A stretch of 48,111 nucleotides of DNA from Byssovorax sp. (lineage in GTDB: Bacteria; Myxococcota_A; Polyangia; Polyangiales; Polyangiaceae): positions 1-48,111 of the forward strand of contig JANYGI010000168.1 of the NCBI GenBank assembly GCA_025362495.1, read 5' to 3'. The notes under the pieces are model-generated. The model worked only from the letters and a program-made list of their open reading frames with translations. It searched no databases and had not been told where the DNA came from. How positions within the stretch are numbered: the stretch's first letter is position 1; every line of letters begins with the position of its first letter. This document shows positions 15,188 through 43,108 of this stretch, one piece after another. The position numbers and the translations under genes are program-made.

Positions 15188-16693
15188 CTATCTCAGGATG
15201 GCGTCGAGGAGATCGATGCGCATACCGAACTTGTAGGGAGAGGCCTTGACGACCTCGGTCTTCTTGCCGGCGATGGTCTCGTCGTCGCCTTCGAGGTAGC
15301 CACCGGCGTTGATGCCAATCACCTTGCCACGGCCGTTGAAGATCGGGCTCCCGCTCGTGCCGGCCGTCGTGGGCGCGTCGTGCTGGATGAGCCAGTTGTC
15401 GGCGAAGGCGCCGGGGCGGCCCGAAGCGTTGGTGATGCGGCCGATGTGCGCCGCGAGGAAGGTGGCCGCGGGGTTGCTCGCGTCCATCAGGCGGCCCGGG
15501 AAGCCGATCATGTAGACGTCGTCGCCCGCGCCCGAGCCGGCGATCTCGTCGCGCGTGGCGAGGTCGAGGACGATCGACGACTTGCCAGAGATGGTGACGA
15601 TGCCGACGTCGGGCGTGAGCGCGTTGGCGTCGGCGTCGCGGTAGCCGGGGTGCGTCGTCATGTTGGAGACGCCGTAGCTGACCTGGGCGCGGCCCTCGTT
15701 CTCGAGGGCGACGACGCTGCCGAGGTGCTTGCGCGCCGCGACGACGCAGTGGGCGTTGGTGGCGAGCACGTTCGGGCGCACGGCGAACGCGGTGCAGAAG
15801 CCCTCGCCGCCGGCCGCGAGCATGAAGACGCCCTTCTTGCTGCGATCGTAGAGGTTGCGACCGAAGCTCGCGTTCGACGGATGCAGCGTCCCGAGGCGGC
15901 CCTCGATGTCCTTGCGGCGGGGATCTTCGGGCGGCAATTTCGCGAGATCGGAGCGGAGCTTGTCGATGCTCTCGTTCGACTGGCTGCTCCAGAGGATGAG
16001 GCCGCCGAGGCCGAGCAGCGCGCACACCAGCAGGAACGCGAGGAAGATCGTGGTGCGCTTCTGCCCCGCCGTCGCGGCGTCGACCTGACGATCGATGTGG
16101 GCGTTGAGCTCCTGCGCGCTGTGCTGCGGGGCGCGGCCGCGCACGGCGTCGACGGCCGACGAGATCATCACGGCCATGGTCCGCTGACCGACGCGCTTGC
16201 CCGCGGGCTCGGCCGGCACGGGCACCGCGCGCGGCGGCGCGGCGTGAACGGGCGCGGAGTACGCCGGCGGCGCGCCGACGGGCGCGGAGTACGCGGCGGG
16301 GCGCTGCGGAGGCGGCGCAGCGGCGACGGGCGCGGCGGGCCTGGCGGCGACGATCTGCGGGGCCGAGGCCTCGCGCGGCGCGGGCGCGGTGAACTCGAGG
16401 CGCACGCGCGGGCCCTTGAGGCCAAACGTGACCTCGTCGCCCGGGGCGAGCGGGGCGCGATCGGCGAGCCGCTGCCCGCGCAGGTACGTGCCGTTGCGGC
16501 TCTGGAGATCGACGAGGATCCAGCGGCCACCTTCGAGGCGGGCCTCGGCGTGGTTGGCGCTCGCGTCGCGGTCGTAGTCGGCGTTGAAGACGACGTCGCC
16601 GTCGGGCGCGCGGCCGAAGCGGACCACGTCTTTCATGATCGTCTGCACGACGCCCGCGCTGTGGCCGAAGGTGTGCGTTATCTTCAGGCTCAC
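15188..16693 (-). CDS. FHA domain - transmembrane - trypsin-like serine protease
   Basis: 501 residues. The N-terminal FHA domain (about 20-100) keeps the canonical phosphothreonine-binding features: Gly27-Arg28, SANH (45-48) and NG (67-68). An Ala/Pro-rich linker with repeated YSAPV follows, then one membrane segment at about 214-235 (TIFLAFLLVCALLGLGGLIL). The C-terminal domain is an S1-type protease with catalytic His315 (ATNAHC), Asp362 (TPDVGIV) and Ser447 (GTSGSP). The predicted topology is FHA in the cytoplasm and protease outside it. The start overlaps the stop of a paralogous upstream gene by four bases (ATGA). It could be a quality-control or signalling protease gated by protein phosphorylation; this is inference. 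Confidence 0.9.
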   Translation of the reverse strand: MSLKITHTFGHSAGVVQTIMKDVVRFGRAPDGDVVFNADYDRDASANHAEARLEGGRWILVDLQSRNGTYLRGQRLADRAPLAPGDEVTFGLKGPRVRLEFTAPAPREASAPQIVAARPAAPVAAAPPPQRPAAYSAPVGAPPAYSAPVHAAPPRAVPVPAEPAGKRVGQRTMAVMISSAVDAVRGRAPQHSAQELNAHIDRQVDAATAGQKRTTIFLAFLLVCALLGLGGLILWSSQSNESIDKLRSDLAKLPPEDPRRKDIEGRLGTLHPSNASFGRNLYDRSKKGVFMLAAGGEGFCTAFAVRPNVLATNAHCVVAARKHLGSVVALENEGRAQVSYGVSNMTTHPGYRDADANALTPDVGIVTISGKSSIVLDLATRDEIAGSGAGDDVYMIGFPGRLMDASNPAATFLAAHIGRITNASGRPGAFADNWLIQHDAPTTAGTSGSPIFNGRGKVIGINAGGYLEGDDETIAGKKTEVVKASPYKFGMRIDLLDAILR

Positions 16694-17997
16694 GGCGCGG
16701 GGACCCCTTGCAGCAAGTCGATCCGCATCGCGATCCGGAAGTCCGAGCTGCCGACGATCTTCGTCTTCTGGCCGCCGACCTGGGCGTCGGCCTCGTCGTC
16801 GAGGTGGGCCGCGTGGACCGCGATCACGTGGCCGTACTGGTTGAACACCGGGCTGCCGCTGTTGCCGCCGCGGGTGACGGCGTCGTGCTGGAGCAGCACG
16901 GCCTTCTCGGGCGACGTGGGCTGCCCGTCGAAGGCCGTGGTGCGCCCGAGGTGGCCTTGCAGGAAGGTCGCCGAGGGGCTGATCGGATCCATGACGCGAC
17001 CCGGGAAGCCGAGGACGAACACGTCGTCGCCGGGGCCGATGGAGCGCAGCTCGGCGTCGCTGGCGATCGTCACGATCCTCGGCATTTTTCCCTCGATCCG
17101 GATGAGGCCGACGTCGGGGGAGTCGGCGCTGGCATCGTCGGGCTTGTACCCCGGGTGCGTCTGCGAGGCGACGATCTTGAAGCGCACTTTGCCGCCTGAA
17201 TCGTTCTGCGTGACGATCGGCGAGCCGCCGGCCTTGCGGTACGCGATCACGCAGTGAGAGTTGGTGGCGATGAGGTTGGGCTTGATCGCGAAGCCCGTGC
17301 AGCAGCCGCCGACCCGATCGCCGGGGAGCAGGTAGCCGATCACGTAGAGCGCGCCGCGGTTCTCTTCGTAGATCTCGCGGCCGGTGTAGACGCGCGTGGG
17401 GATCGAGCCCTGCGGGGCGGCGACGGTCGTCTTGCCGACGCCGGTCTCGGTCGCGAGGACCTGCGCGGCTTGCTGCGATCGGTACACCATGACCGCCGCG
17501 AGCAGCGTCCCCGCGAGCGCGAGCAGGAGGCCGACGGTGAGCAGCCCGTTGGCGCGGGCGCCGCGGCGGCGAGCGTCACCGACCTTGGCGGCGATGAGCT
17601 CCGAGGTCTTGTCGTCGCGCGAGGCCGCGGCGATCACCGCGGCCTGGACGAGGCGCTGCGCCGTCTCGAGATCGACGCGGCCCTCGGCGTCGGGCGCGCC
17701 GGGGAGATCGAGGCGGAGCTGGGGGCCGCCCGATCCCGCGAGCGTGACGACGTCGCCGCTCTGGATCGCGTGGCGGCGAACGCGCGTGCGGTTGACGTAC
17801 GTGCCGGCGGGCGTGCCGAGATCGACGAGCCAGTACCCGTGGCCTTCCTGGTGGAGCTCGGCGTGCCGAGGCGCGACGCCAGGCTCGCCGGCGAGCGTGA
17901 GCTCGTTGCCCGCTGCCGAGCCGATGCGGACGCGAGCGCCGCGCAGCTCGACGACGGAGGGCGCCGCGCGGCCGCGGAGGTGGGTGATGCGGATCAT
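16690..17997 (-). CDS. Paralogous FHA-like - transmembrane - trypsin-like serine protease
   Basis: 435 residues, with the same layout as the downstream gene. An FHA-like fold at about 15-95 is followed by a membrane segment at about 151-172 (LLTVGLLLALAGTLLAAVMV) and an S1-type protease with His248 (ATNSHC), Asp295 (SPDVGLI) and Ser380 (GGNSGSP). All three catalytic residues are present. The FHA module is degenerate: the usual Gly-Arg is IGS, SxxH is APRH (42-45) and the NG pair is AG (64-65). It probably does not bind phosphothreonine in the usual way. The stop overlaps the start of the canonical paralogue, so the two are made together and may hetero-oligomerise. Confidence 0.9.
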   Translation of the reverse strand: MIRITHLRGRAAPSVVELRGARVRIGSAAGNELTLAGEPGVAPRHAELHQEGHGYWLVDLGTPAGTYVNRTRVRRHAIQSGDVVTLAGSGGPQLRLDLPGAPDAEGRVDLETAQRLVQAAVIAAASRDDKTSELIAAKVGDARRRGARANGLLTVGLLLALAGTLLAAVMVYRSQQAAQVLATETGVGKTTVAAPQGSIPTRVYTGREIYEENRGALYVIGYLLPGDRVGGCCTGFAIKPNLIATNSHCVIAYRKAGGSPIVTQNDSGGKVRFKIVASQTHPGYKPDDASADSPDVGLIRIEGKMPRIVTIASDAELRSIGPGDDVFVLGFPGRVMDPISPSATFLQGHLGRTTAFDGQPTSPEKAVLLQHDAVTRGGNSGSPVFNQYGHVIAVHAAHLDDEADAQVGGQKTKIVGSSDFRIAMRIDLLQGVPAP

Positions 17998-18102: not shown

Positions 18103-20421
18103 TCACCCGGGCGGGAGCAGGCCGACCTCGCTCACGATGATGACGCCGGCCGGGCTGCGATCGAACACCAGGCGGATCGCGGCGAGGCGCGTCGGATCGA
18201 ACCCCGGCGCCTGCGCCTGGAAGGCCGCGAGCGGGATCTCGATCGACTGAAAGGCAGCCTCGGGCGCGCGCGGCGGGAGGAACCCCGGCTTCCAGACGCG
18301 CGTCTCGAGCTGCGCCTGGAGGAGCGACACCTGCGCGAGCGGGACGCGCGCCGTGACGCCGGCCGCGTCGACGATCTCGATCGTCACGTCGATGGGCGCG
18401 CGCGGCGCCGCGCTCCAGAGCGGGTGCGTCGGGCCCTGGCGATCGCGGCGCCGCAGGCCGCGCGGGCTGGGGTTGTCGTTGCCGTCGGCGAGGACGAGCA
18501 CGAGCCGCGTGCCGGGCGCCGCGGCGGTGTCGGGCGGCAGCGTCACGGTGTAGCTCGGCACGCCCTTGATCGCGTCGTCGTCCCAGCCGAGGTACGCGCC
18601 GCGCGTCGAGAGCCCCTCGACGTTGCCGGGCGGCCCCAGCGGCTGCTCGCGCCACCCGGTGAGGTTCTCGGCGTCGATGTGGCCGCCCGGCAGCGACGTC
18701 GTCGTGGGATCGATGTCCTCCTCGTAGTCGACGAGGATCTTCGTTCGCGACGACGAGTAGCGGCTGATCAAGATCGTGTCGGGGAGCCACGCCGCGCCGG
18801 CCCGGTGGTCCTGGAAGAGCGGGAGGTACTCTTTCTTTCCGAGCAGCGCCGCCTCGAGGAAGGCCGCGATGTACGCCTTTCCGATCTTCTCTTGATCGGC
18901 GACCGGCATCACCGGCTTGCTGTTGAAGTAAGCGCGCCGCGGGAACGGCGACTTGTCGGAGCGCCCCCACTTGCGGTTCCACTGCCCGTGGTTCGCGCGG
19001 TGGATGAAGACCGAGGCCTTGAACGCGTCGCCCGGGTGCGTGAGGTGGACGCGCTCGTACTGCTGCGCGCCCGCGAACGACTCGACGTCGCCGTCGTTGG
19101 AGCCCTGCAGCGCCAGGTAGCTCACGTCGTCGAGCTCGATCGGGCGGCCTCCGGGGAGGTACTGCCGATCGGTCGTGGCGATGGCGACGAGCGCGCGGAT
19201 CCCGAAGTGGAAGTCGAGCTTGACCAGCGCGTTGTCCGGCGCGCGATGGAGCTGGTTGAGCTTCGCCGCCGCGGTGATCGCCTCGCCCCCGCGCGAGTGC
19301 CCCATCAGCGCGACGCGCTCGAGATCGACCTTGCCGTGGAAAGGATTGCCCGGCGTGGCGTTCCAGCCGCGGAAGGCGCGCAGGTGCTCGAGCAAGAGGT
19401 AGCCCCGCGCCGCGTTGTCGCCGGAGAGGCCGCCGAGGCCGAGATCGAGCCACGGGCCGACGTTGAGAAAATTCTCGTCGACCGACGCGACGATGAAGCC
19501 GCGCGAGGCGAGGTGACGGCCGAGGTAGTCGTATCCCATCTCGGAGAAGTCGTGCATCGGGTGCCCGCCGTGCGCGATGAGCACGATCGGGAACGGCCCC
19601 TCGCCCGCGGGGTACCAGACGTGCGCGTTGATCGGCATCGAGGCCGCGTCGAACCCCCAGTACTTGCGCCGCGCCCACGCCTCGATGCCGTTCCAGCCGT
19701 GGACGAACGCCGAGCCGTCGACCGACGCCGTGATCAGCTGCGCGCCGCTGCCGTACTCGGGTCGGCGGCGATCTTTGCCGCTGCCGTAGACGAGCTCCGT
19801 CACCGCGAACGGGCCCGGCGCCGAGGGATCGGGCGCGTCGATCGCGGGGACGGTGATCCCCGTCGCCTTCGCCGCGTCGATCGCCGGCGTGTTGTCCTCG
19901 CCCTCGCCGAAGAGCCACCGCGCGCCGAGCCCGAGCATGCCGACGCCGCCGAGCAGCGCGAGGGCGGCCGCAGCGCGAGAGCCGCGCGAGAGCCGCGCGA
20001 GAGGTCGCCGCCGCAGCACGGCGATCGCCGCGCCGAGGACGATCGACACCGACGCGACGTAGAGCGTGGGCACGAGGCGCTCGGGGAGCGCGCCCGAGAA
20101 GATCCGCATCATCAACGCGAAGACGCAGCCGCCGATCACCACGCGCGCGACGCGCGGCAGGAGCCCGAAGACATGGGCCCCGAACGTCAGCGCGACGCCT
20201 GCCCCCGCCGCGACGATCACGATCACCGGGACGCCGAGCAGCAGGATCGCCGACCCGATCCCGCGGTAGCGCTCGGACGATCGCAGCACGAGCACGAACA
20301 TCGTGCCGAACAGGAGCCCCCACGCGCCGCCGCGGATCACGTCGTCTTCAGGCGCCGTCGCGCGCTGGATCCGACGCGCGCTGCTCCTGAAGAAGTCCGC
20401 CAACCGTTTCGCCAGCTCCAT
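18103..20421 (-). CDS. Five-helix membrane domain fused to alpha/beta hydrolase (chlorophyllase/PAF-acetylhydrolase-like)
   Basis: 772 residues from ATG at 20421, preceded by GGAAGAGG; a TTG at 20520 would add 33 residues. The first 170 residues contain about five hydrophobic segments (near 30-47, 55-82, 92-110, 117-135 and 153-170). Next comes an alpha/beta hydrolase domain with LIAHGGHPMHDF (likely oxyanion region) and the nucleophile elbow GHSRGGEA (Ser376). The C-terminal 200 residues are beta-rich, ending in PAGVIIVSEVGL, like an accessory beta-sandwich. The hydrolase part is most like the chlorophyllase/poly(ester)ase-type family; the substrate is unknown. The gene is divergent from a heme-protein operon, and a weak Fur-like sequence lies in its leader. 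Confidence 0.82.
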   Translation of the reverse strand: MELAKRLADFFRSSARRIQRATAPEDDVIRGGAWGLLFGTMFVLVLRSSERYRGIGSAILLLGVPVIVIVAAGAGVALTFGAHVFGLLPRVARVVIGGCVFALMMRIFSGALPERLVPTLYVASVSIVLGAAIAVLRRRPLARLSRGSRAAAALALLGGVGMLGLGARWLFGEGEDNTPAIDAAKATGITVPAIDAPDPSAPGPFAVTELVYGSGKDRRRPEYGSGAQLITASVDGSAFVHGWNGIEAWARRKYWGFDAASMPINAHVWYPAGEGPFPIVLIAHGGHPMHDFSEMGYDYLGRHLASRGFIVASVDENFLNVGPWLDLGLGGLSGDNAARGYLLLEHLRAFRGWNATPGNPFHGKVDLERVALMGHSRGGEAITAAAKLNQLHRAPDNALVKLDFHFGIRALVAIATTDRQYLPGGRPIELDDVSYLALQGSNDGDVESFAGAQQYERVHLTHPGDAFKASVFIHRANHGQWNRKWGRSDKSPFPRRAYFNSKPVMPVADQEKIGKAYIAAFLEAALLGKKEYLPLFQDHRAGAAWLPDTILISRYSSSRTKILVDYEEDIDPTTTSLPGGHIDAENLTGWREQPLGPPGNVEGLSTRGAYLGWDDDAIKGVPSYTVTLPPDTAAAPGTRLVLVLADGNDNPSPRGLRRRDRQGPTHPLWSAAPRAPIDVTIEIVDAAGVTARVPLAQVSLLQAQLETRVWKPGFLPPRAPEAAFQSIEIPLAAFQAQAPGFDPTRLAAIRLVFDRSPAGVIIVSEVGLLPPG

Positions 20422-20496
20422 CGATTCGACCTCTTCCCGAAGATGCCGGAACGTCACTCGTGCAGGTGGCGGTAAAACATTTCTACACGAACTATC

Positions 20497-20515
20497 GCAC
20501 TTGAAAATCAACTTC
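20497..20515. promoter_or_regulatory. Weak second Fur-box-like site
   Basis: This AT-rich stretch matches the 19-base Fur consensus GATAATGATAATCATTATC at about 11 of 19 positions, most strongly in the last 13 bases (GAAAATCAACTTC, 9 of 13). It lies upstream of both divergent genes. Alone it is not convincing; its interest comes from the stronger site 34 bases away. Confidence 0.3.
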
Positions 20516-20523
20516 TCCAAGCG

Positions 20524-20551
20524 TTGACAGACCCGACCGCGCGCTGCTAAT
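20524..20551 (+). promoter_or_regulatory. Sigma-70-type promoter of the di-heme/imelysin operon
   Basis: A perfect -35 hexamer TTGACA (20524-20529), a 16-base spacer and a -10-like GCTAAT preceded by T (20546-20551). The expected start of transcription is near 20558, 30 bases before the ATG at 20587. The Fur-like box overlaps the end of the -10 and the start site. Confidence 0.6.
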
Positions 20552-20570
20552 GAAAGTGAAAATCAAAGTC
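20549..20570. promoter_or_regulatory. Fur-box-like operator overlapping the -10 region
   Basis: An AT-rich island in GC-rich DNA. Bases 20552-20570 match GATAATGATAATCATTATC at 13 of 19 positions, and the wider 22-base alignment matches at 16 of 22. Mismatches are T-to-A or A-to-G. Its placement over the promoter is that expected of an iron-responsive repressor site, and the downstream genes (di-heme oxidoreductase, imelysin) belong to families that are Fur-regulated in other bacteria. Confidence 0.6.
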
Positions 20571-20586
20571 TAGTTCGTGAGGCCCG

Positions 20587-21819
20587 ATGCTTCCTGCCGT
20601 GTTTCGCCAGATCCCGCTCTTTTTCGCGCTCGCCGCCGTCGCCGGGTGTGCGTCGCCCGAAGATCCGGCCGCGTCGGCGGTGGAAGGCGAATCCAGGAGC
20701 GGCGCCCCGGTCCTCGGCCTTTCCAGCGGCGCGCGTGCGCAATTCGATAGAGGCGACGCCCTCTTCGAGCGGACTCAGCGCGATACCGACGGTCTGGGGC
20801 CACTTTACGTCCGTGCTGCATGCGCCGATTGCCATCGCGACGACGTCCGTGGGCCGGGCTTCGTCGAGAAACTTTCCATCATCGAGGACGACGGCGTCAC
20901 CGCGTCGGCCGATCAGTCGAAGCTCCCCTTCGGCCACAGCGTCCGGCCCTACACGACGGCGGGCGCGACGACGCCGGTGCTCGCGCCGCAGGGCGATCCG
21001 CGCGTGAAGACGAGCCGTCGCCTCGGCCCGCCGGTGATCGGACGCGGCTTCCTGGAGGCCGTGCTCGACAGCGAGATCGAGCGGCAAGAGCTCGAGCAAG
21101 CGACGCGCACCGACGGGATCCACGGGCGCGTGAACCGCGTGACGTACACCTCGGAAGCGAACCCGGGGAGCATGTCGAGGCTCGTGAAAGGCGACGCCGG
21201 CCTCGTGGGGCGCTTCGGTCTCAAGGCGCGGATCGCGACGCTCGACGACTTCACCGCCGATGCGTTCCAGGGCGACATGGGCATCACATCGCCGATGCGT
21301 CCGGTGGAGCTGCCCAACCCCGACGGCCTCACCGATGACGACAGACCCGGTGTGGACACGACGCTGGACGTCGTCAACGACATCGCCGCGTACATGCGCC
21401 TGCTGGCGATCCCGCGGCGCGATCTGCCGTCGGATCCCACCGGCGCGGCGCTCTTCGTCGCCGCGAGATGCGCTGTGTGCCACGCGCCTTCGCTGCGCAC
21501 GCGCGCCGACTATCCGATCGCGGCGCTCGCCGACGTCGACGCGCCGGTGTTCACCGATTTTCTCCTCCACGATCTCGGGACGGCGCTCGCCGACGGGCTC
21601 GACGAGGGGGGCGCGTCGTCGCGCGAGTGGCGGACGGCGCCGCTGATCGGCCTGTGCTTCGATCACGTGCTCCTGCACGACGGGCGCGCTCGCACGATCG
21701 AGGACGCCGTCCTCGCGCACGACGGCGAGGGCTCGGAGGCGCGCGCGTCGATCGCCTTGTTTCGCGGCCTCTCGAGCGTCGAGAAGGCCGCACTGCTCGC
21801 GTACGTCGGCGCGCTCTAG
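20587..21819 (+). CDS. Di-heme oxidoreductase family lipoprotein (DUF1111, 'thiol oxidoreductase')
   Basis: 410 residues with a lipobox (LAAVAGC, Cys21). There are two c-type heme motifs, CADCH at 79-83 and CAVCH at 295-299. Between them lies the family signature RFGLKARIATLDDFTADAF followed by QGDMGIT. The C-terminal part (FTDFLLHDLGTALADG, EWRTAPLIGL, LLHDGRARTIEDAVLAH) matches the MauG/di-heme peroxidase-like fold. It should be lipid-anchored and face the periplasm or outside. In Pseudomonas, relatives called thiol oxidoreductases sit beside imelysin genes and respond to iron; the reaction is not settled. TGAGG precedes the ATG. It is the first gene of a five-gene operon. Confidence 0.92.
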   Translation: MLPAVFRQIPLFFALAAVAGCASPEDPAASAVEGESRSGAPVLGLSSGARAQFDRGDALFERTQRDTDGLGPLYVRAACADCHRDDVRGPGFVEKLSIIEDDGVTASADQSKLPFGHSVRPYTTAGATTPVLAPQGDPRVKTSRRLGPPVIGRGFLEAVLDSEIERQELEQATRTDGIHGRVNRVTYTSEANPGSMSRLVKGDAGLVGRFGLKARIATLDDFTADAFQGDMGITSPMRPVELPNPDGLTDDDRPGVDTTLDVVNDIAAYMRLLAIPRRDLPSDPTGAALFVAARCAVCHAPSLRTRADYPIAALADVDAPVFTDFLLHDLGTALADGLDEGGASSREWRTAPLIGLCFDHVLLHDGRARTIEDAVLAHDGEGSEARASIALFRGLSSVEKAALLAYVGAL

Positions 21820-21842
21820 GCCGCCGGAAAGGGACGACTCTC

Positions 21843-22895
21843 ATGATTCGATCGCTGAAGATCGCGGGCTGCGCTCTGGCTCTTTCGCTCGCGCTCGCGG
21901 GCTGCGCGACGGTGAAGACCGACGCCGAGTTCGAGGCGGAGATCGCAGACAGCATGCAGTCGTCGATCGCGACCGACATCGACGGGTGGCTCGCGGCGTC
22001 GCGATCGCTCTGCGACGCCGCGCCGCTGCCGAAAGGCCGCGGCTGGGACGCCTCGCTCGACGCCGCGTCGATCACGGCGATGAAGTCCGCGTGGCGGACG
22101 GCGCGCTCGCGCTACGAGCACATCGAGGGCGCCGTCGCCCCGCTCTTCCCCGAGCTCGATGCGGCGACCGACGCTCGCTACGACGACTTCCTGAGCGAGC
22201 TCCCCGACGGCGATCACGATCTCTTCGATGCTCAGGGCGTGACCGGGATGCACGCGATCGAGCGCATCCTCTACGCGCCGTCGATCCCGGCCGAGGTGGT
22301 GAGCTTCGAGGCGCCGCTCCCCGGCTACGTGAAGGCCGCGTTCCCCGCGACCGAGGCCGAGGCGTCGTCGTTCAAGCTGAAGCTGTGCGCGCGCCTCGTC
22401 GTCGACGTGACCACGCTGCAGACGCAGTGGAAGCCGGCGAAGCTCGACATCGGCGCGGCGTTTCAGGGCCTCGTCGCGCTGATGAACGAGCAGCGCGAGA
22501 AGGTGAACAAGGCCGCGACGGGGCAGGAGGAGTCGCGCTACTCGCGGATGACGCTCGCCGACATCCACGCGAACCTCGCGGGGACCGAGGCGATCTACGC
22601 GCTGTTCCAGCCGTGGATCCTCTCGAAGCCGGACGGCAAGGCGGCCGACGACAGCATCACGGCCGGGTTCGAATCGCTGCGCGCGGCGTACGATGCCAAC
22701 CCCGGCGACACGATCCCCGAGCCGCCCGCGACCTGGAGCGCCGAGCCGTCGGCGAAGGATCTGGCGACGCCGTTCGGCGAGCTCTTCCAAGCCGTGACCG
22801 TCGCGGTCGATCCGGCGCGCGACGGCTCGATCGTCTTCGAGATGAACCGCGCCGCCGGCGTGATGGGCCTCCCCGGGTTCACGGAAGGTGCTTGA
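21843..22895 (+). CDS. Imelysin family lipoprotein (peptidase M75 / EfeO-like, iron-regulated)
   Basis: 350 residues with a lipobox (LALAGC, Cys21). The family hallmark GxHxxE is present as GMHAIE at 135-140, preceded by AWRTARSRYEHIEGAV, which matches the imelysin W..AR..YE..E helix. A second-half segment (YSRMTLADIHANLAGTEAIY) fits the duplicated helical bundle. Imelysins are periplasmic or surface metal-binding proteins linked to iron uptake; protease activity is doubtful. A longer in-frame reading begins inside the previous gene and would bury the signal peptide, so ATG 21843 is chosen. It follows the di-heme gene by 23 bases and precedes the next start by one base. Confidence 0.92.
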   Translation: MIRSLKIAGCALALSLALAGCATVKTDAEFEAEIADSMQSSIATDIDGWLAASRSLCDAAPLPKGRGWDASLDAASITAMKSAWRTARSRYEHIEGAVAPLFPELDAATDARYDDFLSELPDGDHDLFDAQGVTGMHAIERILYAPSIPAEVVSFEAPLPGYVKAAFPATEAEASSFKLKLCARLVVDVTTLQTQWKPAKLDIGAAFQGLVALMNEQREKVNKAATGQEESRYSRMTLADIHANLAGTEAIYALFQPWILSKPDGKAADDSITAGFESLRAAYDANPGDTIPEPPATWSAEPSAKDLATPFGELFQAVTVAVDPARDGSIVFEMNRAAGVMGLPGFTEGA

Positions 22896-22896
22896 A

Positions 22897-23424
22897 ATGA
22901 AGCTGCTTTGCGTCGCGATCGCCATGTCGCTCGCGGCGTGCGCGCCGGCCGAGTCGGGCTCCGGCCCGGAGCCCGCGGGCGACACGTTCCTCGCGGTGGA
23001 CTCGAGCTTCACCGGCTTCCGCACCTGGGAGTCGTTCCCGCTGCCGGCGGGATCGAGCCTGACGATCCACACGTCGGGCGCGCGCACCGAGTACCTGAAC
23101 CGCGCGCCGGCGCCGGGGCGCACCGCGTTCCCGGTGGGCACGATCATCGTGAAGGAGTCCGACGACGGGCCGATCGACGCGCGCCAGGTCTTCGCGCGGG
23201 TGAAGCGCGGCGGCGGCTACAACGCCGCGGGCGCCGCGGGGTGGGAGTGGTTCGAGCTGAAGAACGTGGACGAAGAGCGGGTGACGCGGGTGTGGCGCGG
23301 CGTCGGGCCGCCCGTCGGCGAGAAGTACGGCGGCGATCCGAACGGCGGGTGCAACGGCTGCCACGGGGCCGCGAAGGACAACGACTTCGTGCTCTCGCCG
23401 CAGCTCCAGCTCGAGATGTTTTGA
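22897..23424 (+). CDS. Cytochrome P460-like heme lipoprotein
   Basis: 175 residues from ATG 22897, with GGAAGG upstream. The lipobox is SLAAC (Cys15). The middle holds FPVGTIIVKES, the conserved strand of cytochrome P460-type domains, followed by a Trp-rich segment (AAGWEWFELKN). A single c-type heme site CNGCH (152-156) lies near the C-terminus, which is where P460 proteins carry it. In P460 a Lys cross-link to heme alters its chemistry; K86 in VKES is present, but whether a cross-link forms is unknown. One base separates the start from the imelysin stop, so translation is coupled. Confidence 0.8.
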   Translation: MKLLCVAIAMSLAACAPAESGSGPEPAGDTFLAVDSSFTGFRTWESFPLPAGSSLTIHTSGARTEYLNRAPAPGRTAFPVGTIIVKESDDGPIDARQVFARVKRGGGYNAAGAAGWEWFELKNVDEERVTRVWRGVGPPVGEKYGGDPNGGCNGCHGAAKDNDFVLSPQLQLEMF

Positions 23425-23440
23425 GGTCAAACGAATTGCC

Positions 23441-24259
23441 ATGACGCGATCCCCGCTCGCCCTCGCCACGCTCGGCGCGCTCTTGCTCGCCGCGGGCGCG
23501 GCCTCCGCCAACCCCAAGCCGCTCCCGTTCACGTACCCGTACCCGACGCTCCCCGCGGGCGAGACGGAGGTCGAGCAGTACGCCGACTTCACGCCGACGC
23601 GCGCGCTCTCGGCCTCGACCGGGAAGCCGGCGACGCTGGGCCTCTTCCTGTTCCAGACCGAGTTCGAGCACGGCATCACCGATCGGCTCGAGCTCGGGCT
23701 CTACCTGCAGCTCGCGCCGCCGGTCGGCGAGGACTACGCGCAGGTGGCGACGATCGGCGCTGGGACCGCGCTGAAGCAGCGGCTGCGGCTGCGCCTGGCC
23801 GAGGCCGGCGAGTGGCCCGTCGACGTGTCGCTCTACGGCGAGATCGTCGAGGCGCGATCCGAGATCGAGCTCGAGGCGAAGGTGAACCTGGAGCGCCGCA
23901 TCGGGAAGATGCGGCTGATGGCGAACCTCTCGGCCGAGCACGAGCTCTACTTCGACGGCCGCCGCGAGTGGGTGCTGAACCCCTCCGCCGGCGCGACGTT
24001 CGAGGTGCTCCCCTCGTTCCACACCGGCCTCGAGTACTGGATGAACGCCGAGCTTCCGATCGACGAGAAGGCGACGGCCCCGCGCCCGTTCGCGCTCGGG
24101 CCGCACCACTACGTCGGGCCGGCGATGCTCTTCAACTTCGGCCGCGTGTGGTGGAGCTTCGGCGTGTACTTTCGCCTGAACGACGTCGCCCGCGTGCAGG
24201 AGCCCGGCGACGCCTACGGCCACCTGTGGCTGCGATCGATCATCGGGCTCGATCTGTGA
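23441..24259 (+). CDS. Outer-membrane beta-barrel-like protein of the heme/imelysin operon
   Basis: 272 residues with a Sec signal peptide ending ASANP (about residues 1-23) and no Cys. The mature sequence is made of alternating aromatic and hydrophobic strands with short charged turns (FLFQTEFEHGITDRLELGLY, LEYWMNAELP, VWWSFGVYFRLND) and a terminal strand SIIGLDL. This fits an outer-membrane barrel of roughly 10-12 strands. It may form a pore or docking site for the heme lipoproteins or imelysin; that is inference. It lies 16 bases after the P460-like gene, and its stop overlaps the next start (GTGA). Confidence 0.8.
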   Translation: MTRSPLALATLGALLLAAGAASANPKPLPFTYPYPTLPAGETEVEQYADFTPTRALSASTGKPATLGLFLFQTEFEHGITDRLELGLYLQLAPPVGEDYAQVATIGAGTALKQRLRLRLAEAGEWPVDVSLYGEIVEARSEIELEAKVNLERRIGKMRLMANLSAEHELYFDGRREWVLNPSAGATFEVLPSFHTGLEYWMNAELPIDEKATAPRPFALGPHHYVGPAMLFNFGRVWWSFGVYFRLNDVARVQEPGDAYGHLWLRSIIGLDL

Positions 24260-24516: not shown

Positions 24517-25959
24517 TCAGCGGAGCAGGTAGTAGCCCGCGATCGTGACGCAGGCGACGGCGCTGGCGATCATCATGATCACCAGCCACTGCGGCGCGCC
24601 CTCGGTCGGGATCTGGATTGGATCGTCGGGGTGACGCGAGACCATCCCGTCGCCGTCGTCGTACTCGTCGGTCTCGCCGACCTCGATGTCAGGGCCGCCC
24701 GATCGCGTCTTCGGCGGGGGCCGCGACGAGACCTTCGACTGATCGAGCCCCTTGAGCTTGCGGCTCGGCTCCGGGATCGTCTGCATCGCCAGGTGCGCCG
24801 GCTCGGGCAGCGAGTACTTCGTGTACTTGAGGCCGTCGATGTCGGCGCGCGTCGGCTCCTGGAGATCGTCGCCCTCGAACTTGGCGACGATGACCGTGAT
24901 GTTGTCGTGGCCGCCGGCCTGGTTGGCGCGATCCGTCAGCATCTTGCAGGCCTCGAGCGGATCGTCGAGCGACTTCAAGATCTCGCGGATCTCGTCGTTG
25001 CGGACCATGCCCGAGAGACCGTCCGAGCAGAGCAGGAGCGTGTCGCCCCGGCGCAGCAGGACGTAGGTGAGATCGACCTGGACCGAGTCGGCCGTGCCGA
25101 GCGCCTGGAGGATGATGTTGTTGTGCTCGAAGGTCTCGGCCTCTTCCTCGGTGAGCTGGCCGGCCTCGATCAGCTGGTTCACCAGCGACTGATCGCGCGT
25201 GACCTGGACGAGGCGTTCGCCGCGGAGGATGTAGCCGCGGCTGTCGCCGACCTGGCCGAGGAAGAGGTGATCGTCGAGCAGCGCCGCGACGGTGGACGTG
25301 GTGCCCATGCCGCGACGCGTGCGGTCGAGCTTGGCCTCGCTGAAGATGCGGAGGCCCGCGGATTCGATCGCGTGCACGAGGCGCGCGGCGAGCCCGTCGT
25401 GATCGGCCGGCGCGCTGCCGACCGCCATGCGCTGGTAGACGATGTCGACGGCGAGCTGGCTGGCGACCTCACCGGCGGCGGCGCCGCCCATGCCGTCGCA
25501 CACGCCCATGAGCGTGCCGCGATCGCCGACGATCTGGACGCGATCGGACTCCATGAGCCCGCGGCTCTCCTTCGTCAGATCGGCGACGATGAAGTTGTCC
25601 TCGTTGTGCTCGCGCACCTGGCCGACGTCGGTGCGACCGAACAGGCGAAGCTTCACCTCTTTGCGGCCGCGCTTGACCTCGGGCGCGGCGGCCTTGGCTT
25701 CGGGCTCGACGGGCTTCGCCTCCGGCACCGACGACGCGGCTTCGGAGATCGAGATCTTCACCTCGGGCTCGGTCGCTCGTGCTTCGCGGGTGTCGAGCTC
25801 GGCCGCCGAGGCTCCGGGCTCGGCGGCGTCGTCCTTCACGACGGAGGCTTCGACCTTCGCCTCCTCGGCGACGGCCGTGGGCTCAGCGGCGTCCGCGGGA
25901 GGCTTGGCCTCGTGCGCGTCGGATCGGGACTCGGAATCGGAGGTCGTGGAAGTCGCCAT
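24517..25959 (-). CDS. PP2C-type protein phosphatase with acidic N-terminus and C-terminal membrane anchor
   Basis: 480 residues. Residues 1-98 are low-complexity Ala/Glu/Pro. The PP2C domain spans about 103-362 with metal and catalytic motifs REHNEDN (117-122), CDGMGG (154-159), GQVGDSRGY (Asp239), LCSDGL (Asp313) and GGHDNITVI (Asp352), all intact. After a charged linker, a single hydrophobic segment at about 458-477 (LVIMMIASAVACVTIAGYYL) makes it tail-anchored with the catalytic domain in the cytoplasm. It would remove phosphate from Ser/Thr-phosphorylated proteins. It lies three bases after a double-FHA gene on the same strand, so both probably act in one phosphoprotein pathway. Confidence 0.93.
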   Translation of the reverse strand: MATSTTSDSESRSDAHEAKPPADAAEPTAVAEEAKVEASVVKDDAAEPGASAAELDTREARATEPEVKISISEAASSVPEAKPVEPEAKAAAPEVKRGRKEVKLRLFGRTDVGQVREHNEDNFIVADLTKESRGLMESDRVQIVGDRGTLMGVCDGMGGAAAGEVASQLAVDIVYQRMAVGSAPADHDGLAARLVHAIESAGLRIFSEAKLDRTRRGMGTTSTVAALLDDHLFLGQVGDSRGYILRGERLVQVTRDQSLVNQLIEAGQLTEEEAETFEHNNIILQALGTADSVQVDLTYVLLRRGDTLLLCSDGLSGMVRNDEIREILKSLDDPLEACKMLTDRANQAGGHDNITVIVAKFEGDDLQEPTRADIDGLKYTKYSLPEPAHLAMQTIPEPSRKLKGLDQSKVSSRPPPKTRSGGPDIEVGETDEYDDGDGMVSRHPDDPIQIPTEGAPQWLVIMMIASAVACVTIAGYYLLR

Positions 25960-25962
25960 GGC

Positions 25963-27780
25963 CTACCCGAGGTCCACTCGAAAGAGGTGCTGTCCGATAC
26001 GCAAGAAGTCTCCGTTGGCCAGGCTGACTTCACCCGTGATGGCGATGAACGTCCCGTTCGAAGAGTCGAGGTCGAGGAGCGAAAATTCGCCGGTGGTCGC
26101 GCTGCGGCGGAGGGCCGCATGCCGGCGAGAGAGGAACGGGTCGGCCGTGAACACGATGTCGCCCGTCTCCCTTCCAATCACGGTCTCGTCGCGGAAGAGG
26201 TGGAACACGTCGCGCACGACGCCCTCCACTGTCCGCTGGCAAAGTCGGGCCCGCCGCGGCGTTGCCGGCGAGCCGAACAGGAGCGTCCCGTGCTGCATGG
26301 CATGCCCGAGGCCTCGCTCACCGTCGCTCACGGTCTGAAACTGTAACACCTCCAGCCCCAAAAGAAGCAAGTCGCCGTCTTTCAGAGGCTGTGGCTTTCG
26401 AATGCGGAGGTACACGTGGTTCGTCGAGTCGAGATCCCGCAGGATCCACTGGCCGTCGAGGAACCGCAGCCGCGCATGACGCGGCGAGACGTAGTGATCG
26501 TCTTCGAGGACGATGTCGCCGTCGGTGCGGCCGATGTCGAGCTGACCGTCGGCGAGCGAGAAACTGCGGCCCTCGGAGCCGTCTTCCACGATCACGACGA
26601 GTCGGCCCGCGTGCTTGCGCCCGGTCTCGCGGCGCACGCCGTCGCGCGCCGCGCGCTGGGGAGGCAAGTTCATCGGCTCGGAGGGGATCGGTGAGCCCGC
26701 GAGGACCGAGATCTCGGCGCGACGACCGGGCTCGCTCGGCGCCTTGGGCCGGGGGCTCGGGCCGGCGCCGTTGCTGGCGACAGGCTCGACCCGCGGCGCG
26801 GCCGGGCGCGGCTCGGGTGCGGCCGCGGGGGCGGGGGGCGAGCTCGGCGGGCCATCGTCGATCGGGGGGCGCGGGCGCGGCGGGATCGGGCTGCGCAGCG
26901 GCGCGGCCTCGACCGGCGCGGGCCCGCGGACGGCCGCGAAAGCCACCGCGGTCGCGGCAGGGCGGGCCGGCGGCGGAGGCGGCGGCGTGCGCGGAGCCGG
27001 CCGGGCCGTCTCGACGCGAGGAGCGCCGCTCGTCGTCTCTTCGAGCGGGCCGCCACAGAATTTACAGAAACGGCTTCCCGCGACGCAGTTTCCGTGACAG
27101 CGCCCGCACGTGATGAGCTTCGGGGGGGCCGCTCCCGACGAGGCGATGTCGAGCACGGGAGACCCGACGATCTTTCCCTCGGAAGCGTCGTCGGGCGGAG
27201 CCGTGCGCGAGGGCGGCGCGGGGCGCGGAGCAGCGGGCGGCAGCGGAGCATCCGCGCGCGGAGGCGGCGGCGCGGCGAGCGGAGCGGCCTTCACGGCGGC
27301 GACGCCCTCGTCGGTGCGACGACCCTCGGCCGGACCTGCCGCGACCTTGAGCGACGAGCCGCACGTCACGCAGAAGCGATAGTCCGGGGGGTTCGGAGTC
27401 TGGCAAGCCGAGCAGAGCATCGTGGACGGCGGCTCGTTCGGCTGGAACGAGAACACCGGCGCGACGGGGCGCGCGCCGCGTCGCTGCGAGGCGGGGCCCG
27501 AGGGCGGAGGCGACGACTCGCGTGCGGCCGGCGCGAACGATTGCGGGACGGCCGCAGGCGCGAAGGACTGCGGCACGGCGGCCGGCGCGAACGATTGCGC
27601 GACAGGGACAGGCGCAGCCGGCTCGGGCGTCGCGGAGGCGTGGAGCGGCGCCGCGGCGACCCGCGGCATCCCGTTCGGAGGCGTGGGCGCCACGACGCGC
27701 GGAGAACGAAGTCTCCGGCCACAGTCCTGACAAAACGTCAGGGTGTCGGCGTTGTCACGCCCGCACACGTCGCAGATCAC
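25963..27780 (-). CDS. Triple zinc-ribbon, double FHA-domain protein
   Basis: 605 residues from a GTG at 27780; a longer reading from ATG 27906 or beyond would run into an intergenic repeat. Three zinc ribbons occur: Cys 3/6/17/20, 123/126/137/140 and 225/228/239/242. Long Pro/Ala linkers separate them, one with three tandem copies of QSFAPAAVP encoded by 27-base DNA repeats. Two FHA domains follow, at about 400-480 (IGR, SPRH, but NH instead of NG) and 525-603 (IGR, SRRH, SNGTF, canonical). It is probably a scaffold that reads phosphothreonine. It is co-oriented with the PP2C gene, with a three-base gap. Confidence 0.85.
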   Translation of the reverse strand: MICDVCGRDNADTLTFCQDCGRRLRSPRVVAPTPPNGMPRVAAAPLHASATPEPAAPVPVAQSFAPAAVPQSFAPAAVPQSFAPAARESSPPPSGPASQRRGARPVAPVFSFQPNEPPSTMLCSACQTPNPPDYRFCVTCGSSLKVAAGPAEGRRTDEGVAAVKAAPLAAPPPPRADAPLPPAAPRPAPPSRTAPPDDASEGKIVGSPVLDIASSGAAPPKLITCGRCHGNCVAGSRFCKFCGGPLEETTSGAPRVETARPAPRTPPPPPPARPAATAVAFAAVRGPAPVEAAPLRSPIPPRPRPPIDDGPPSSPPAPAAAPEPRPAAPRVEPVASNGAGPSPRPKAPSEPGRRAEISVLAGSPIPSEPMNLPPQRAARDGVRRETGRKHAGRLVVIVEDGSEGRSFSLADGQLDIGRTDGDIVLEDDHYVSPRHARLRFLDGQWILRDLDSTNHVYLRIRKPQPLKDGDLLLLGLEVLQFQTVSDGERGLGHAMQHGTLLFGSPATPRRARLCQRTVEGVVRDVFHLFRDETVIGRETGDIVFTADPFLSRRHAALRRSATTGEFSLLDLDSSNGTFIAITGEVSLANGDFLRIGQHLFRVDLG

Positions 27781-28084
27781 GGACGGAGGGGACCAAGGAG
27801 AGAGTTTCGAGTCAAGCAGGACCGTCGGCGGGCGACGACGAGGCGTCGGTTTCGCGGCGAGTCGGCCCTTCTCGTGCCGAAAAAACTCTCGGAGTCTGGC
27901 CGGCATTCGCAGTCCAGACTCTTCACCTGGTCCCGGGAGAGGGCTCGCGCCCTCTCCCCCCGCCGAGCAAAGCTCGTCGGGGCCCCCCATACCCCGTACC
28001 GAAAACGACGAAGGGATCGGTTTGCCTCTCGGCAAATCCTTGCGCCGGCCGCATCTCGAGGGGCGACCTTTTACGGTCAGCCTC
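27781..28084. other. Intergenic region with dispersed repeat
   Basis: 304 bases between the barrel gene stop and the FHA gene start, both on the minus strand. It holds repeat copy 1 (27930-27996), which may end the upstream transcript. The promoter for the FHA/PP2C pair should lie between 27781 and 27930; I see no clear consensus boxes. Confidence 0.5.
27930..27996 (+). repeat. Dispersed intergenic hairpin repeat, copy 1
   Basis: About 67 bases closely similar to the copy at 29391-29458. It contains a perfect hairpin (GGGAGAGGGC, loop TCGC, GCCCTCTCCC, 27935-27958), a second small hairpin around CGAGCAAAGCTCG, and the shared end CGTCGGGGCCCCCCATACC. Compensatory changes keep the first stem paired in both copies. 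It lies downstream of the barrel gene. Confidence 0.75.
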
Positions 28085-28828
28085 TCAGCGACGACCGATC
28101 TCGGTCCGCACTTCGAGCTGGATCTCGATCCCGACGAACTGCGCGAGGCCGGTCGGTCGCACGATCTTCGCGGTGTCGGTCCATCCGGCGAGGAGCACCG
28201 GGCGGTAGATGATCCCGAGGCCGATGTGCGCGAGGCGCGACACCTCGAACTCGACGCCGCCGCCGAGCATCAGCTCCGCGCCGCCGGTCTCCACGCGCCA
28301 CTCGTTGCCGTACACGGCCGCGCCGAGGCCGCCGAGCAAGTAGGGCGCGGCGCGCGCGCCGGTGTCGGGCAGGTAGCGCGCCTCGGCGCGCAGCTCCTGG
28401 AAGATGCCGAGGCGGTAGAGGTTGCCCGAGTCCATCTTGGTGAACTCGTAAGCGCCGCCGAGATACCAGGCGCCCGGTGAGCGGTAGCCGCCGCGGAGCA
28501 CCAGGCCGCCACCACCGCCGAGGATGCACGGCGGCTTGACCTGCGCGCCGCAGATCGCGCCGGACGACATGTTGACCCGCGAGGTGAACGCGGCGCCGTA
28601 CTGGGCGTACTCGACATGCAGCGGCGGCGGCCGGAGCGGATCGATCGGCACCGCGCTCGCCGTCGCCTCGACCGGAGGCGTGGCGGTGGGGGGCGGCGCA
28701 GGCGCGACGGGGGGCGCCGCGGGCGTGGCGGGGGCGTCCGCTTGCGCGGGCTCCGCGAACAGGGCCAGCGCGAGCACGGCGGCGGCGCTCACCGACCCCA
28801 GCGACAAACGGGCGGGCACGGAGCCCAC
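28085..28828 (-). CDS. Outer-membrane beta-barrel protein with Ala/Pro-rich N-terminus
   Basis: About 247 residues from GTG at 28828; a TTG at 28855 or GTG at 28819 are alternatives. A signal peptide (SAAAVLALALFAEPAQADA) is followed by a 30-residue Ala/Pro spacer. The rest has short amphipathic strands: AAFTSRVNMS, GGLVLRGGYR, AWYLGGAYEFTK, GLGIIYRPVLLAGW, and a final strand FVGIEIQLEV. Two Cys (AICGAQVKPPC) may form a disulfide loop. It resembles the OmpA-like or OmpW-like small barrel class, but no specific family is assigned. It is probably monocistronic. Confidence 0.72.
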   Translation of the reverse strand: MGSVPARLSLGSVSAAAVLALALFAEPAQADAPATPAAPPVAPAPPPTATPPVEATASAVPIDPLRPPPLHVEYAQYGAAFTSRVNMSSGAICGAQVKPPCILGGGGGLVLRGGYRSPGAWYLGGAYEFTKMDSGNLYRLGIFQELRAEARYLPDTGARAAPYLLGGLGAAVYGNEWRVETGGAELMLGGGVEFEVSRLAHIGLGIIYRPVLLAGWTDTAKIVRPTGLAQFVGIEIQLEVRTEIGRR

Positions 28829-29007
28829 GCTACGCGTCCCCGCGCGCCGGAGCAACGGGTGGGGAAGGTGCCCACGTGCGCAACCGACCTGGACTGACGA
28901 CGATCCGGGCCCCCTCCTGGACCCGCAGAGAGCAAGCCTTCCGTGAAAGAAGATCGCGGTCCGCTTGACGTCAGCCGCGAGGGTCGCCTAAACGAGCGGC
29001 ACGCAGC

Positions 29008-42181: not shown

Positions 42182-43108
42182 CTAAGCGCCGTGCTTGAGG
42201 AGCACGCGATTTCTACCGCTGCGCTTCGCCTGGTAGAGCGCCTCGTCGGCGCCGGCGATGAGCTGCGTCGCGTTCTCCACCGGGATCTCCGGGTGAGCCG
42301 CGACGCCGACGCTGATCGTGACCGGCATCCGCGTGCCCTCGTGGTCGAACGCGGCCTGCTCCACCATCACCCGCAGGCGCTCGCCGAGGATGCCCGCGTG
42401 CGAGAGCGAGACGCCGCGGCAGACGACGCAGAACTCTTCGCCGCCGTAGCGGGCGAACACGTCCTCGATCCGGAGCGTGGCGATGGAGAGCTTGGAGATC
42501 TTCACGAGCACCGTGTCGCCCGCGACGTGGCCCCACGTGTCGTTGACGCGCTTGAAGTGATCGACGTCGAACATCACCAGCGAGAGCGCGGCGCGGTGCC
42601 GGCGGGCGTAGGCGATCTCGGTCTCGAGGTAGTCGAGCAGGTGCTTGCGGTTGAAGGCGCCCGTCAGCGGATCGCGCAGGGCCGCGTCGTACATCTGCTG
42701 CTGGAAGTTCTCGTCGAGCTGATCGCTGTACGTGAACTTGAGGATCGTGGTCGACCCGAGGCGGATCTTGTCGCCGTCGGCGAGGGGCTGCTGGGTCACG
42801 GCCTCGCCGTTGACGAGCGTGCCGTTGGCGCTCTGCAGATCTTCGATGCGGACCTGGCCGCCCGTCTGGACCAGGCGAGCGTGCCGCCGCGAGATGCCGT
42901 CGTCGTTGAGGCGGATGGTCGCGTTCTGCCCGCGACCGAGGAACGTCTCACCCTCTTCGAGGTTGTACGTCTTGCCGACGTTCGACCCCGCGAGCACCAG
43001 CAGAACAGCGCGGTTGCGCTGGGTCCGACTCGCCAGCTCTTGTTGCAGCTCGGCGAGGCTGGAGACCTTGGTGCACTCCATGTCGTCGTCGGGCAGAGGG
43101 GATGTCAT
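42182..43108 (-). CDS. FHA-GGDEF diguanylate cyclase
   Basis: 308 residues from ATG 43108; a TTG at 43117 is an alternative. The FHA domain (about 35-125) is canonical: LGRG, SRRHARL and SANGTLVNG. The GGDEF domain (about 140-305) has DPLTGAFNRKHL, FDVDHFKRVND and the active-site GGEEF (222-226). An intact inhibitory site RIED (213-216) lies five residues before it, so the enzyme should be product-inhibited. It would make cyclic di-GMP in the cytoplasm, with activity or location controlled by binding a phosphothreonine protein. There is no membrane segment. Confidence 0.93.
   Translation of the reverse strand: MTSPLPDDDMECTKVSSLAELQQELASRTQRNRAVLLVLAGSNVGKTYNLEEGETFLGRGQNATIRLNDDGISRRHARLVQTGGQVRIEDLQSANGTLVNGEAVTQQPLADGDKIRLGSTTILKFTYSDQLDENFQQQMYDAALRDPLTGAFNRKHLLDYLETEIAYARRHRAALSLVMFDVDHFKRVNDTWGHVAGDTVLVKISKLSIATLRIEDVFARYGGEEFCVVCRGVSLSHAGILGERLRVMVEQAAFDHEGTRMPVTISVGVAAHPEIPVENATQLIAGADEALYQAKRSGRNRVLLKHGA

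Follow-up and report, generated by a model that had tools for sequence, protein, structure and literature searches.

The serine protease DegS is anchored by one N-terminal membrane helix, and proteases of the HtrA family work as trimers. Proteins of this type are compared here with the products of two adjacent genes on the reverse strand of a 48,111-nucleotide stretch of Byssovorax sp. DNA (contig JANYGI010000168.1; the whole stretch is called the window). The upstream protein, named up (16690-17997), and the downstream protein, named dn (15188-16693), both consist of an FHA domain, one membrane helix and an HtrA-like serine protease part. The single helix is shared with DegS, and the protease part of the up structure model (residues 202-435) has the chymotrypsin fold, with Z scores of 20-22 against HtrA-type chains (MucD, DegS, HhoA and others). 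The trimers of the HtrA type also make mixed oligomers of up and dn plausible. Unlike DegS and HtrA, the pair has a cytoplasmic FHA domain before the helix and two paralogues with divided roles; the window proteins gave no PDZ match in the Pfam scan, and about 40 residues follow their Trypsin_2 match. The HtrA/DegS models of NCBIfam scored 14.9-23 bits and did not reach their cut-offs of 416 to 650. Myxobacteria are rich in Ser/Thr phosphorylation and, to our knowledge, few phosphorylation outputs crossing the inner membrane are known in them. Our results suggest a split-role membrane protease, in which cytoplasmic protein phosphorylation would control cutting outside the inner membrane.

In working principle, the closest described system is LapD-LapG. 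As far as the available part of its description goes (PMC4359373), cyclic-di-GMP is read by the membrane protein LapD, which recruits and restrains the periplasmic protease LapG; there, too, a membrane protein reads a signal in the cytoplasm and thereby sets the activity of a periplasmic protease. In the pair described here, by contrast, the reader would be a sister protein of the protease, and phosphothreonine, not cyclic-di-GMP, would be the signal.

The FHA parts resemble those of TagH, GltG, FhaB and GarA/OdhI in fold, and dn keeps the binding residues. These matches are weak, however, they end within or shortly after the FHA domain without covering the protease, and they stay far under the NCBIfam cut-offs (TagH TIGR03354: dn 32.5 and up 21.2 bits, cut-off 120.25; GltG NF033760: dn 29 and up 23.1 bits, cut-off 650). 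Among solved FHA structures, GarA chains were the closest to the dn profile. The MarP model NF033740 matched the protease part of up weakly (22.8 bits, cut-off 250 not reached), and dn had no listed match to it. For an FHA fold devoid of the phosphothreonine-binding residues, as in up, the accessible part of PMC4925161 provides a precedent in EssC, which differs in being a secretion ATPase.

No description of such an up/dn pair was found in the literature searched, which left subscription journals mostly outside its coverage, so that absence from print is not shown. The accessible text of the Sorangium/Myxococcus phosphatome study (PMC2887360) mentions FHA once, in a SpoIIE-FHA fusion, and does not mention a protease; that of the Minicystis genome paper (PMC8436480) gives the number of PP2C genes as 21, with no mention of FHA. 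Trypsin and FHA domains appear in other systems in the available parts of two papers on conflict systems (PMC7159879, PMC8195603).

Division of roles between the two copies

The first-pass annotation of the window had described a pair of FHA-helix-trypsin proteins with intact catalytic triads, in which the upstream FHA domain had lost its Arg, Ser and Asn and the downstream one had kept them. This was borne out by Pfam, hydropathy and alignment. The up gene (stop included; 435 amino acids, ATG start) encodes a degenerate FHA domain at 17740-17931 (Pfam PF00498, residues 23-86, 50.8 bits, cut-off 20.7), a membrane helix at 17482-17547 (about residues 151-172 by hydropathy, within a long helix 132-185 in the structure model) and a protease part at 16693-17394 with the triad H248/D295/S380 and Cys 233 and 249. 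The dn gene (stop included; 501 amino acids, GTG start) encodes an intact FHA domain at 16421-16624 (PF00498, residues 24-91, 55.2 bits, same cut-off), a Pro-rich linker, a membrane helix at 15986-16057 (about residues 213-236 by hydropathy) and a protease part at 15191-15832 (residues 288-501) with the triad H315/D362/S447. Trypsin_2 (PF13365, cut-off 27.6) matched residues 233-394 of up with 66.2 bits and residues 300-461 of dn with 58.2 bits. PF16697, the cytoplasmic domain of YscD-type type III secretion proteins (cut-off 33.2; up 35.0, dn 32.6 bits), overlies the stronger FHA match. At the four positions of the phosphate site, which we take to be marked by Arg, SxxH and Asn-Gly, up reads Ser, Ala, His and Ala, and dn reads Arg, Ser, His and Asn (R28/S45/H48/N67). 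Judged by these residues, the FHA domain of up is predicted not to read phosphothreonine, and that of dn is predicted to bind it.

An order-wide search of 183 genomes found the protease in 38. Fifteen of these are among the 108 genomes of the window's family; they represent five genera and have two matches each. The other 23 belong to four other families and have one copy each, so the pair was not supported as a general architecture. In So0008-312 (G125), up is frameshifted, both matches being its pieces, and dn ends at the contig end after the FHA domain; 14 complete pairs remain because this one is broken. They come from the window, Minicystis rosea DSM 24000 (G097), a metagenome-assembled genome (MAG; G029), a Polyangium group (Polyangium fumosum DSM 14668, G111; Polyangium spp. 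G113, G114 and G115; by genus label also G013 and G112) and a Sorangium group (Sorangium cellulosum So0157-2, So ce26 and So ceGT47, which are G122, G123 and G124; a Sorangium MAG, G126; by genus label also G018). A single-copy set was read in eight genomes with a strong match, among 22 genomes of other families. It makes up, with the proteins of the complete pairs, the 36 homologues compared below, 22 of which are dn or single-copy proteins.

The comparison shows that the duplicates have divided their roles, up being the predicted cutting and dn the predicted phosphate-reading protein. The triad of up was complete in all 14 pairs. Its FHA domain was absent in 12 of them and degenerate in the other two, the window and Minicystis rosea; the same three positions are lost in both, and those of Minicystis read Ser, Ala and Ser. 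The 12 up genes without the domain have no space for it, because the stop codon of the preceding PP2C phosphatase gene lies only 16-72 nucleotides before the assigned up start, as against 93 nucleotides in the FHA-bearing Minicystis. In dn, the FHA residues Arg, Ser, His, Asn and Gly were kept in 14/14, as were the His and Asp of the triad, and the catalytic Ser was replaced by Asn in nine (codon AGC to AAC), leaving a full triad in five. The Ser-less dn proteins are those of all six Polyangium-group genomes and of three of the five Sorangium-group genomes. In every complete pair, each function is kept in at least one copy. The phosphate-site residues were intact in every dn and single-copy homologue (22/22), including the eight single-copy proteins, of which five kept the catalytic Ser, two had Ala and one Met. 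The asymmetry between reader and cutter is thus stronger than first annotated, although the dn protein of the window itself still has its Ser.

A degenerate FHA domain of up as an accident private to the window genome was rejected: Minicystis shares the losses, and the domain is in frame and was modelled with a predicted local distance difference test score (pLDDT) of 74-95 over residues 1-100.

The overlapping stop and start codons of the pair, annotated as a sign of equal amounts, share four bases (GTGA, 16690-16693), and the start codon of dn lies at the same -4 position in all 14 complete pairs; the five Sorangium pairs also have an ATG at -1, from which dn might start instead. Co-occurrence of the paralogues, which had been proposed as a check, was found in 15/15 protease-bearing genomes of the family, with the locus of So0008-312 broken; this locus apart, neither up nor dn was found alone in the 108 genomes. 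This bears on whether the two proteins form a complex at all. They might be independent homo-oligomers with diverged jobs, up a constitutive membrane protease and dn an FHA-regulated protease or adaptor: homologues in single copy do exist without a linked partner, the protease regions of the window proteins are only 37-41% identical and constraint on the stretch before the helix is weak. The overlap kept in every complete pair, the lack of solitary copies in the family and losses that are complementary and never affect both copies make such independence unlikely.

We propose instead that one FHA-helix-HtrA-like protease gene of a PP2C/FHA phospho-signalling operon was duplicated in tandem. The first copy, up, would have become the catalytic subunit, its FHA domain either missing, as in 12 pairs, or disabled, as in the window and Minicystis, and dn would have become the phosphothreonine-reading subunit, with the protease fold kept even without Ser. 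The two may form a mixed oligomer in the inner membrane through contacts of their protease domains and of the helices that cross the membrane. A phosphothreonine partner would bind the FHA domain of dn in the cytoplasm, the binding would be relayed outward and switch the up protease in the periplasm, and a membrane-tied PP2C would reset the signal. That up and dn are tandem duplicates, catalytic and phosphothreonine-reading respectively, in a mixed inner-membrane oligomer with inside-out control and PP2C reset, has in our judgement slightly less than an even chance of being correct. If true, periplasmic proteolysis would be under inside-out control by Ser/Thr phosphorylation. Reader and cutter appear to have been separated by evolution in sister proteins, which makes the question testable by mutating the reader and assaying the cutter. 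Within one two-gene unit, the pair further offers a clear-cut example of duplication followed by complementary loss, its intermediate stages being still extant: a degenerate FHA domain (window, Minicystis rosea), its absence (Sorangium, Polyangium, one MAG) and either Ser or Asn within Sorangium.

Membrane topology, phylogeny and selection

A position of the protease part in the periplasm, outside the inner membrane, is supported, because the proteins have a single predicted helix and a Cys pair flanking the catalytic His, and because the up model has an HtrA/DegS-type fold. Hydropathy gave one clear helix in 36/36 homologues (19-residue means of 2.00 to 2.97 for the best segment and of 0.88 to 1.56 for the second). 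The Cys pair, which we take to be C42-C58, was likewise present in 36/36, and in each of the 22 proteins of dn or single-copy type it comprised the only Cys residues C-terminal of the helix. The N side of the helix was the more positive one in 28 of the 36, which gives moderate support by the charge rule. Only the up model (mean pLDDT 82.9, predicted template modelling score 0.56) was compared with solved structures; its top Z scores, from residue 205 on, were 22.2 (MucD) and 21.5 (DegS). The motif GNSGSP was invariant in the up alignment. The dn model was weaker (mean pLDDT 77.4, predicted template modelling score 0.49), with a low-confidence Pro-rich linker. The external protease of the first-pass annotation thus stands. 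A cytoplasmic protease part was not supported by helix, Cys pair or fold, though the charge rule alone is weak. The protease parts also matched the anti-phage model RT-Protease_XI of PADLOC (E 1e-8 to 1e-9), and PHROGs gave weak protease matches.

Two extra Cys residues (CC...HCxxxC) were seen in the twelve FHA-less up proteins. Both are lost in Minicystis and one in the window, where the site of Cys 232/233 is 17299-17304; the remaining odd Cys could link subunits.

The tree was built on the membrane and protease part, with the columns around Ser195 removed. Each of up and dn formed one clade (support 100/99), and on this tree the Ser column changed at least three times in dn and not at all in up; support within Sorangium dn was low, which leaves room for Ser reversal there. 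The up proteins of the window and Minicystis were sisters (97/95) within the up clade. The branch leading to the FHA domain of up is long (1.1 changes per column), and the identity between window and Minicystis was 53% in the up FHA domain and 69% in the up protease, 71% and 74% in the corresponding parts of dn. Forcing the FHA-less up proteins together was not rejected (approximately unbiased test, p 0.095). The five Sorangium up proteins start with MLR..KRGR..PA, resembling the start of the window FHA domain, a feature not shared by the six Polyangium proteins; these differing starts hint at separate FHA deletions.

Decay of the Ser-less dn protease was not supported. The ratio of non-synonymous to synonymous change (dN/dS) of the protease in Polyangium was 0.147 in dn, where all six proteins have Asn, and 0.168 in up (15 genome pairs); in Sorangium it was 0.248 in dn (3/5 Asn) and 0.285 in up (10 genome pairs). 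The Ser-less Polyangium dn domain is still constrained and thus apparently retained for something besides cutting. This would also fit a signal running outside-in: the HtrA-like domain of dn in the periplasm, whether active or dead, would sense periplasmic peptides or the state of the envelope and report via the helix to the FHA domain and PP2C, and up would supply or trim the ligand. Dead protease domains are common among single-copy FHA-helix-proteases, too (10/39), and PP2C is present in 100 of the 108 family genomes, the protease in 15 only. The complete triad of up in 14/14, by which cutting appears to be selected for in the pair, is hard to fit to such sensing, and we know of the FHA domain as a reader, not as an output domain; we regard the outside-in direction as improbable, though worth keeping in mind.

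A two-subunit enzyme is the cheapest account, because it covers the complementary loss, the overlap in 14/14 and a dead yet constrained sister; dn would read and up would cut, with the reading domain on the side of the membrane-tied PP2C. In this form, a two-subunit protease whose reader sister, often a dead protease, switches the catalytic sister across the inner membrane, with a membrane PP2C for reset, arisen by duplication and complementary loss, is put forward tentatively, at clearly less than an even chance.

Operon context and the wider FHA-helix family

The pair ends an operon in its 13 complete relatives, where the gene order is zinc-ribbon FHA, PP2C, up, dn. The same order was found in the eight single-copy genomes, with one FHA-helix-trypsin gene in place of the pair. 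The PP2C stop lies 16-93 nucleotides before the assigned up start in the 13 relatives, in which the PP2C matches extend to the last residue of the window PP2C. In the window, the corresponding genes, all on the reverse strand, are the PP2C phosphatase (24517-25959; identified by Pfam and, by eye, ending in a hydrophobic helix), directly preceded by a zinc-ribbon protein with two FHA domains (25963-28035), and before this a 256-amino-acid protein (28085-28855) that, judged by eye, is barrel-like and probably exported. Such a protein of about 256 amino acids heads the operon in seven aligned loci, being 25-64% identical to the window protein in six relatives, the lowest value doubtful; the five scanned had no Pfam match. 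PP2C matched at E 1e-60 or better in 100/108 genomes of the family. Among 30 PP2C loci, a trypsin gene adjoins in 14 relatives and none lies within the 1.5 kb or less covered in the window and 15 others; an FHA gene is upstream in 14 of these 15 others. The linked PP2C fits the control by phosphorylation that had been annotated, although in the window a block of other genes (18103-24259) lies between PP2C and up. It encodes an 805-amino-acid, chlorophyllase/PETase-like hydrolase, a DHOR cytochrome, an imelysin, a weakly P460-like protein and a 272-amino-acid protein.

The wider family was scanned in the best 80 of 253 relatives. PP2C was directly upstream in 68 of the 80 loci (57 by distance and 11 pairs where PP2C precedes up), and 50 had a trypsin gene (39 single-copy FHA-trypsins and 11 pairs, one of them, L133, with dn cut). 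All 11 pairs belong to Sorangium, Polyangium, Minicystis or the MAG G029. By record titles, FHA-trypsins extend to MAGs of Gemmatimonadetes, Acidobacteria and Planctomycetes. A motif search found the catalytic Ser kept in 29 of the 39 single-copy proteins. Seventeen FHA proteins without a trypsin match (L156-L160, L164-L169, L171, L172, L174-L176, L182) have 192-201 residues from the FHA start, a helix near the C-terminus and no outer domain, and in 16 of them the FHA match lies 10-34 nucleotides behind PP2C. These FHA-helix proteins of about 195 amino acids are a minimal form of the same module. They would suit a purely structural role, in which proteins of the FHA-helix type keep PP2C partners membrane-bound, the outer domain serving mainly for anchoring or binding; with the triad retained in up in 14/14 and GNSGSP invariant there, we consider a mere scaffold very unlikely for the pair.

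A hetero-oligomer with inside-out control is, we infer, the best reading of these data, and several points weigh against it. The catalytic Ser of dn is retained in the window, Minicystis, the MAG G029, So ceGT47 and the Sorangium MAG. On the tree, three single-copy proteins from family f8 join dn with weak support (88/75), which makes a duplication older than the window's family conceivable; forcing up and dn together was not rejected (approximately unbiased test, p 0.17). A single deletion of the FHA domain in all 12 up proteins is neither shown nor rejected (p 0.095). Between window and Minicystis, dN/dS of the FHA domain is equal, about 0.47, in up (0.42/0.89) and dn (0.17/0.36), and relaxed selection on the up domain is therefore not shown by this measure; with GC-rich codons, dS is moreover not reliable. 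The cytoplasmic stretch before the helix, the expected carrier of the signal, is weakly constrained in the same comparison (up: dN 0.43, dS 0.38, ratio about 1.1 over 45 codons; dn: dN 0.31, dS 0.45, ratio 0.7 over 50 codons), which speaks against a conserved signalling rod. The block that splits the window pair from PP2C, about 6.5 kb, is unrelated and absent at this place in the 13 complete relatives. None of the operon genes was recognised as a kinase, the wider neighbours having been domain-scanned only in part. In the wider family, 10 of the 39 FHA-trypsins present in single copy have lost the Ser, and the stretch examined around them contains no second trypsin gene. In 30 of the 80 loci, the FHA protein gave no match to trypsin; these include L163, cut by the locus end, and some probably unrelated FHA proteins, such as that of L185 (Streptomyces). 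The dead or missing protease domain in many relatives is the main evidence against proteolysis as a universal output.

Further FHA-containing sequences were also seen. The dn frame of S. cellulosum So0157-2 (L116, 4888-8028) has a second, partial FHA-like stretch in its linker (profile match at residues 553-606). In two loci of family f6 (L057, 6833-8569; L062, 7125-8978), an FHA gene with GAF-like and cyclase-like parts, recognised by eye, directly follows the single FHA-helix-trypsin gene, and FHA genes are likewise downstream in L130, L131, L134, L135, L136, L137, L138, L142, L143 and L148 (L134 and L136 cut). The window genome has 67 FHA matches in total, and a further strong one in the window (70.2 bits, 42755-42943, reverse strand) lies in an open frame of 323 amino acids.

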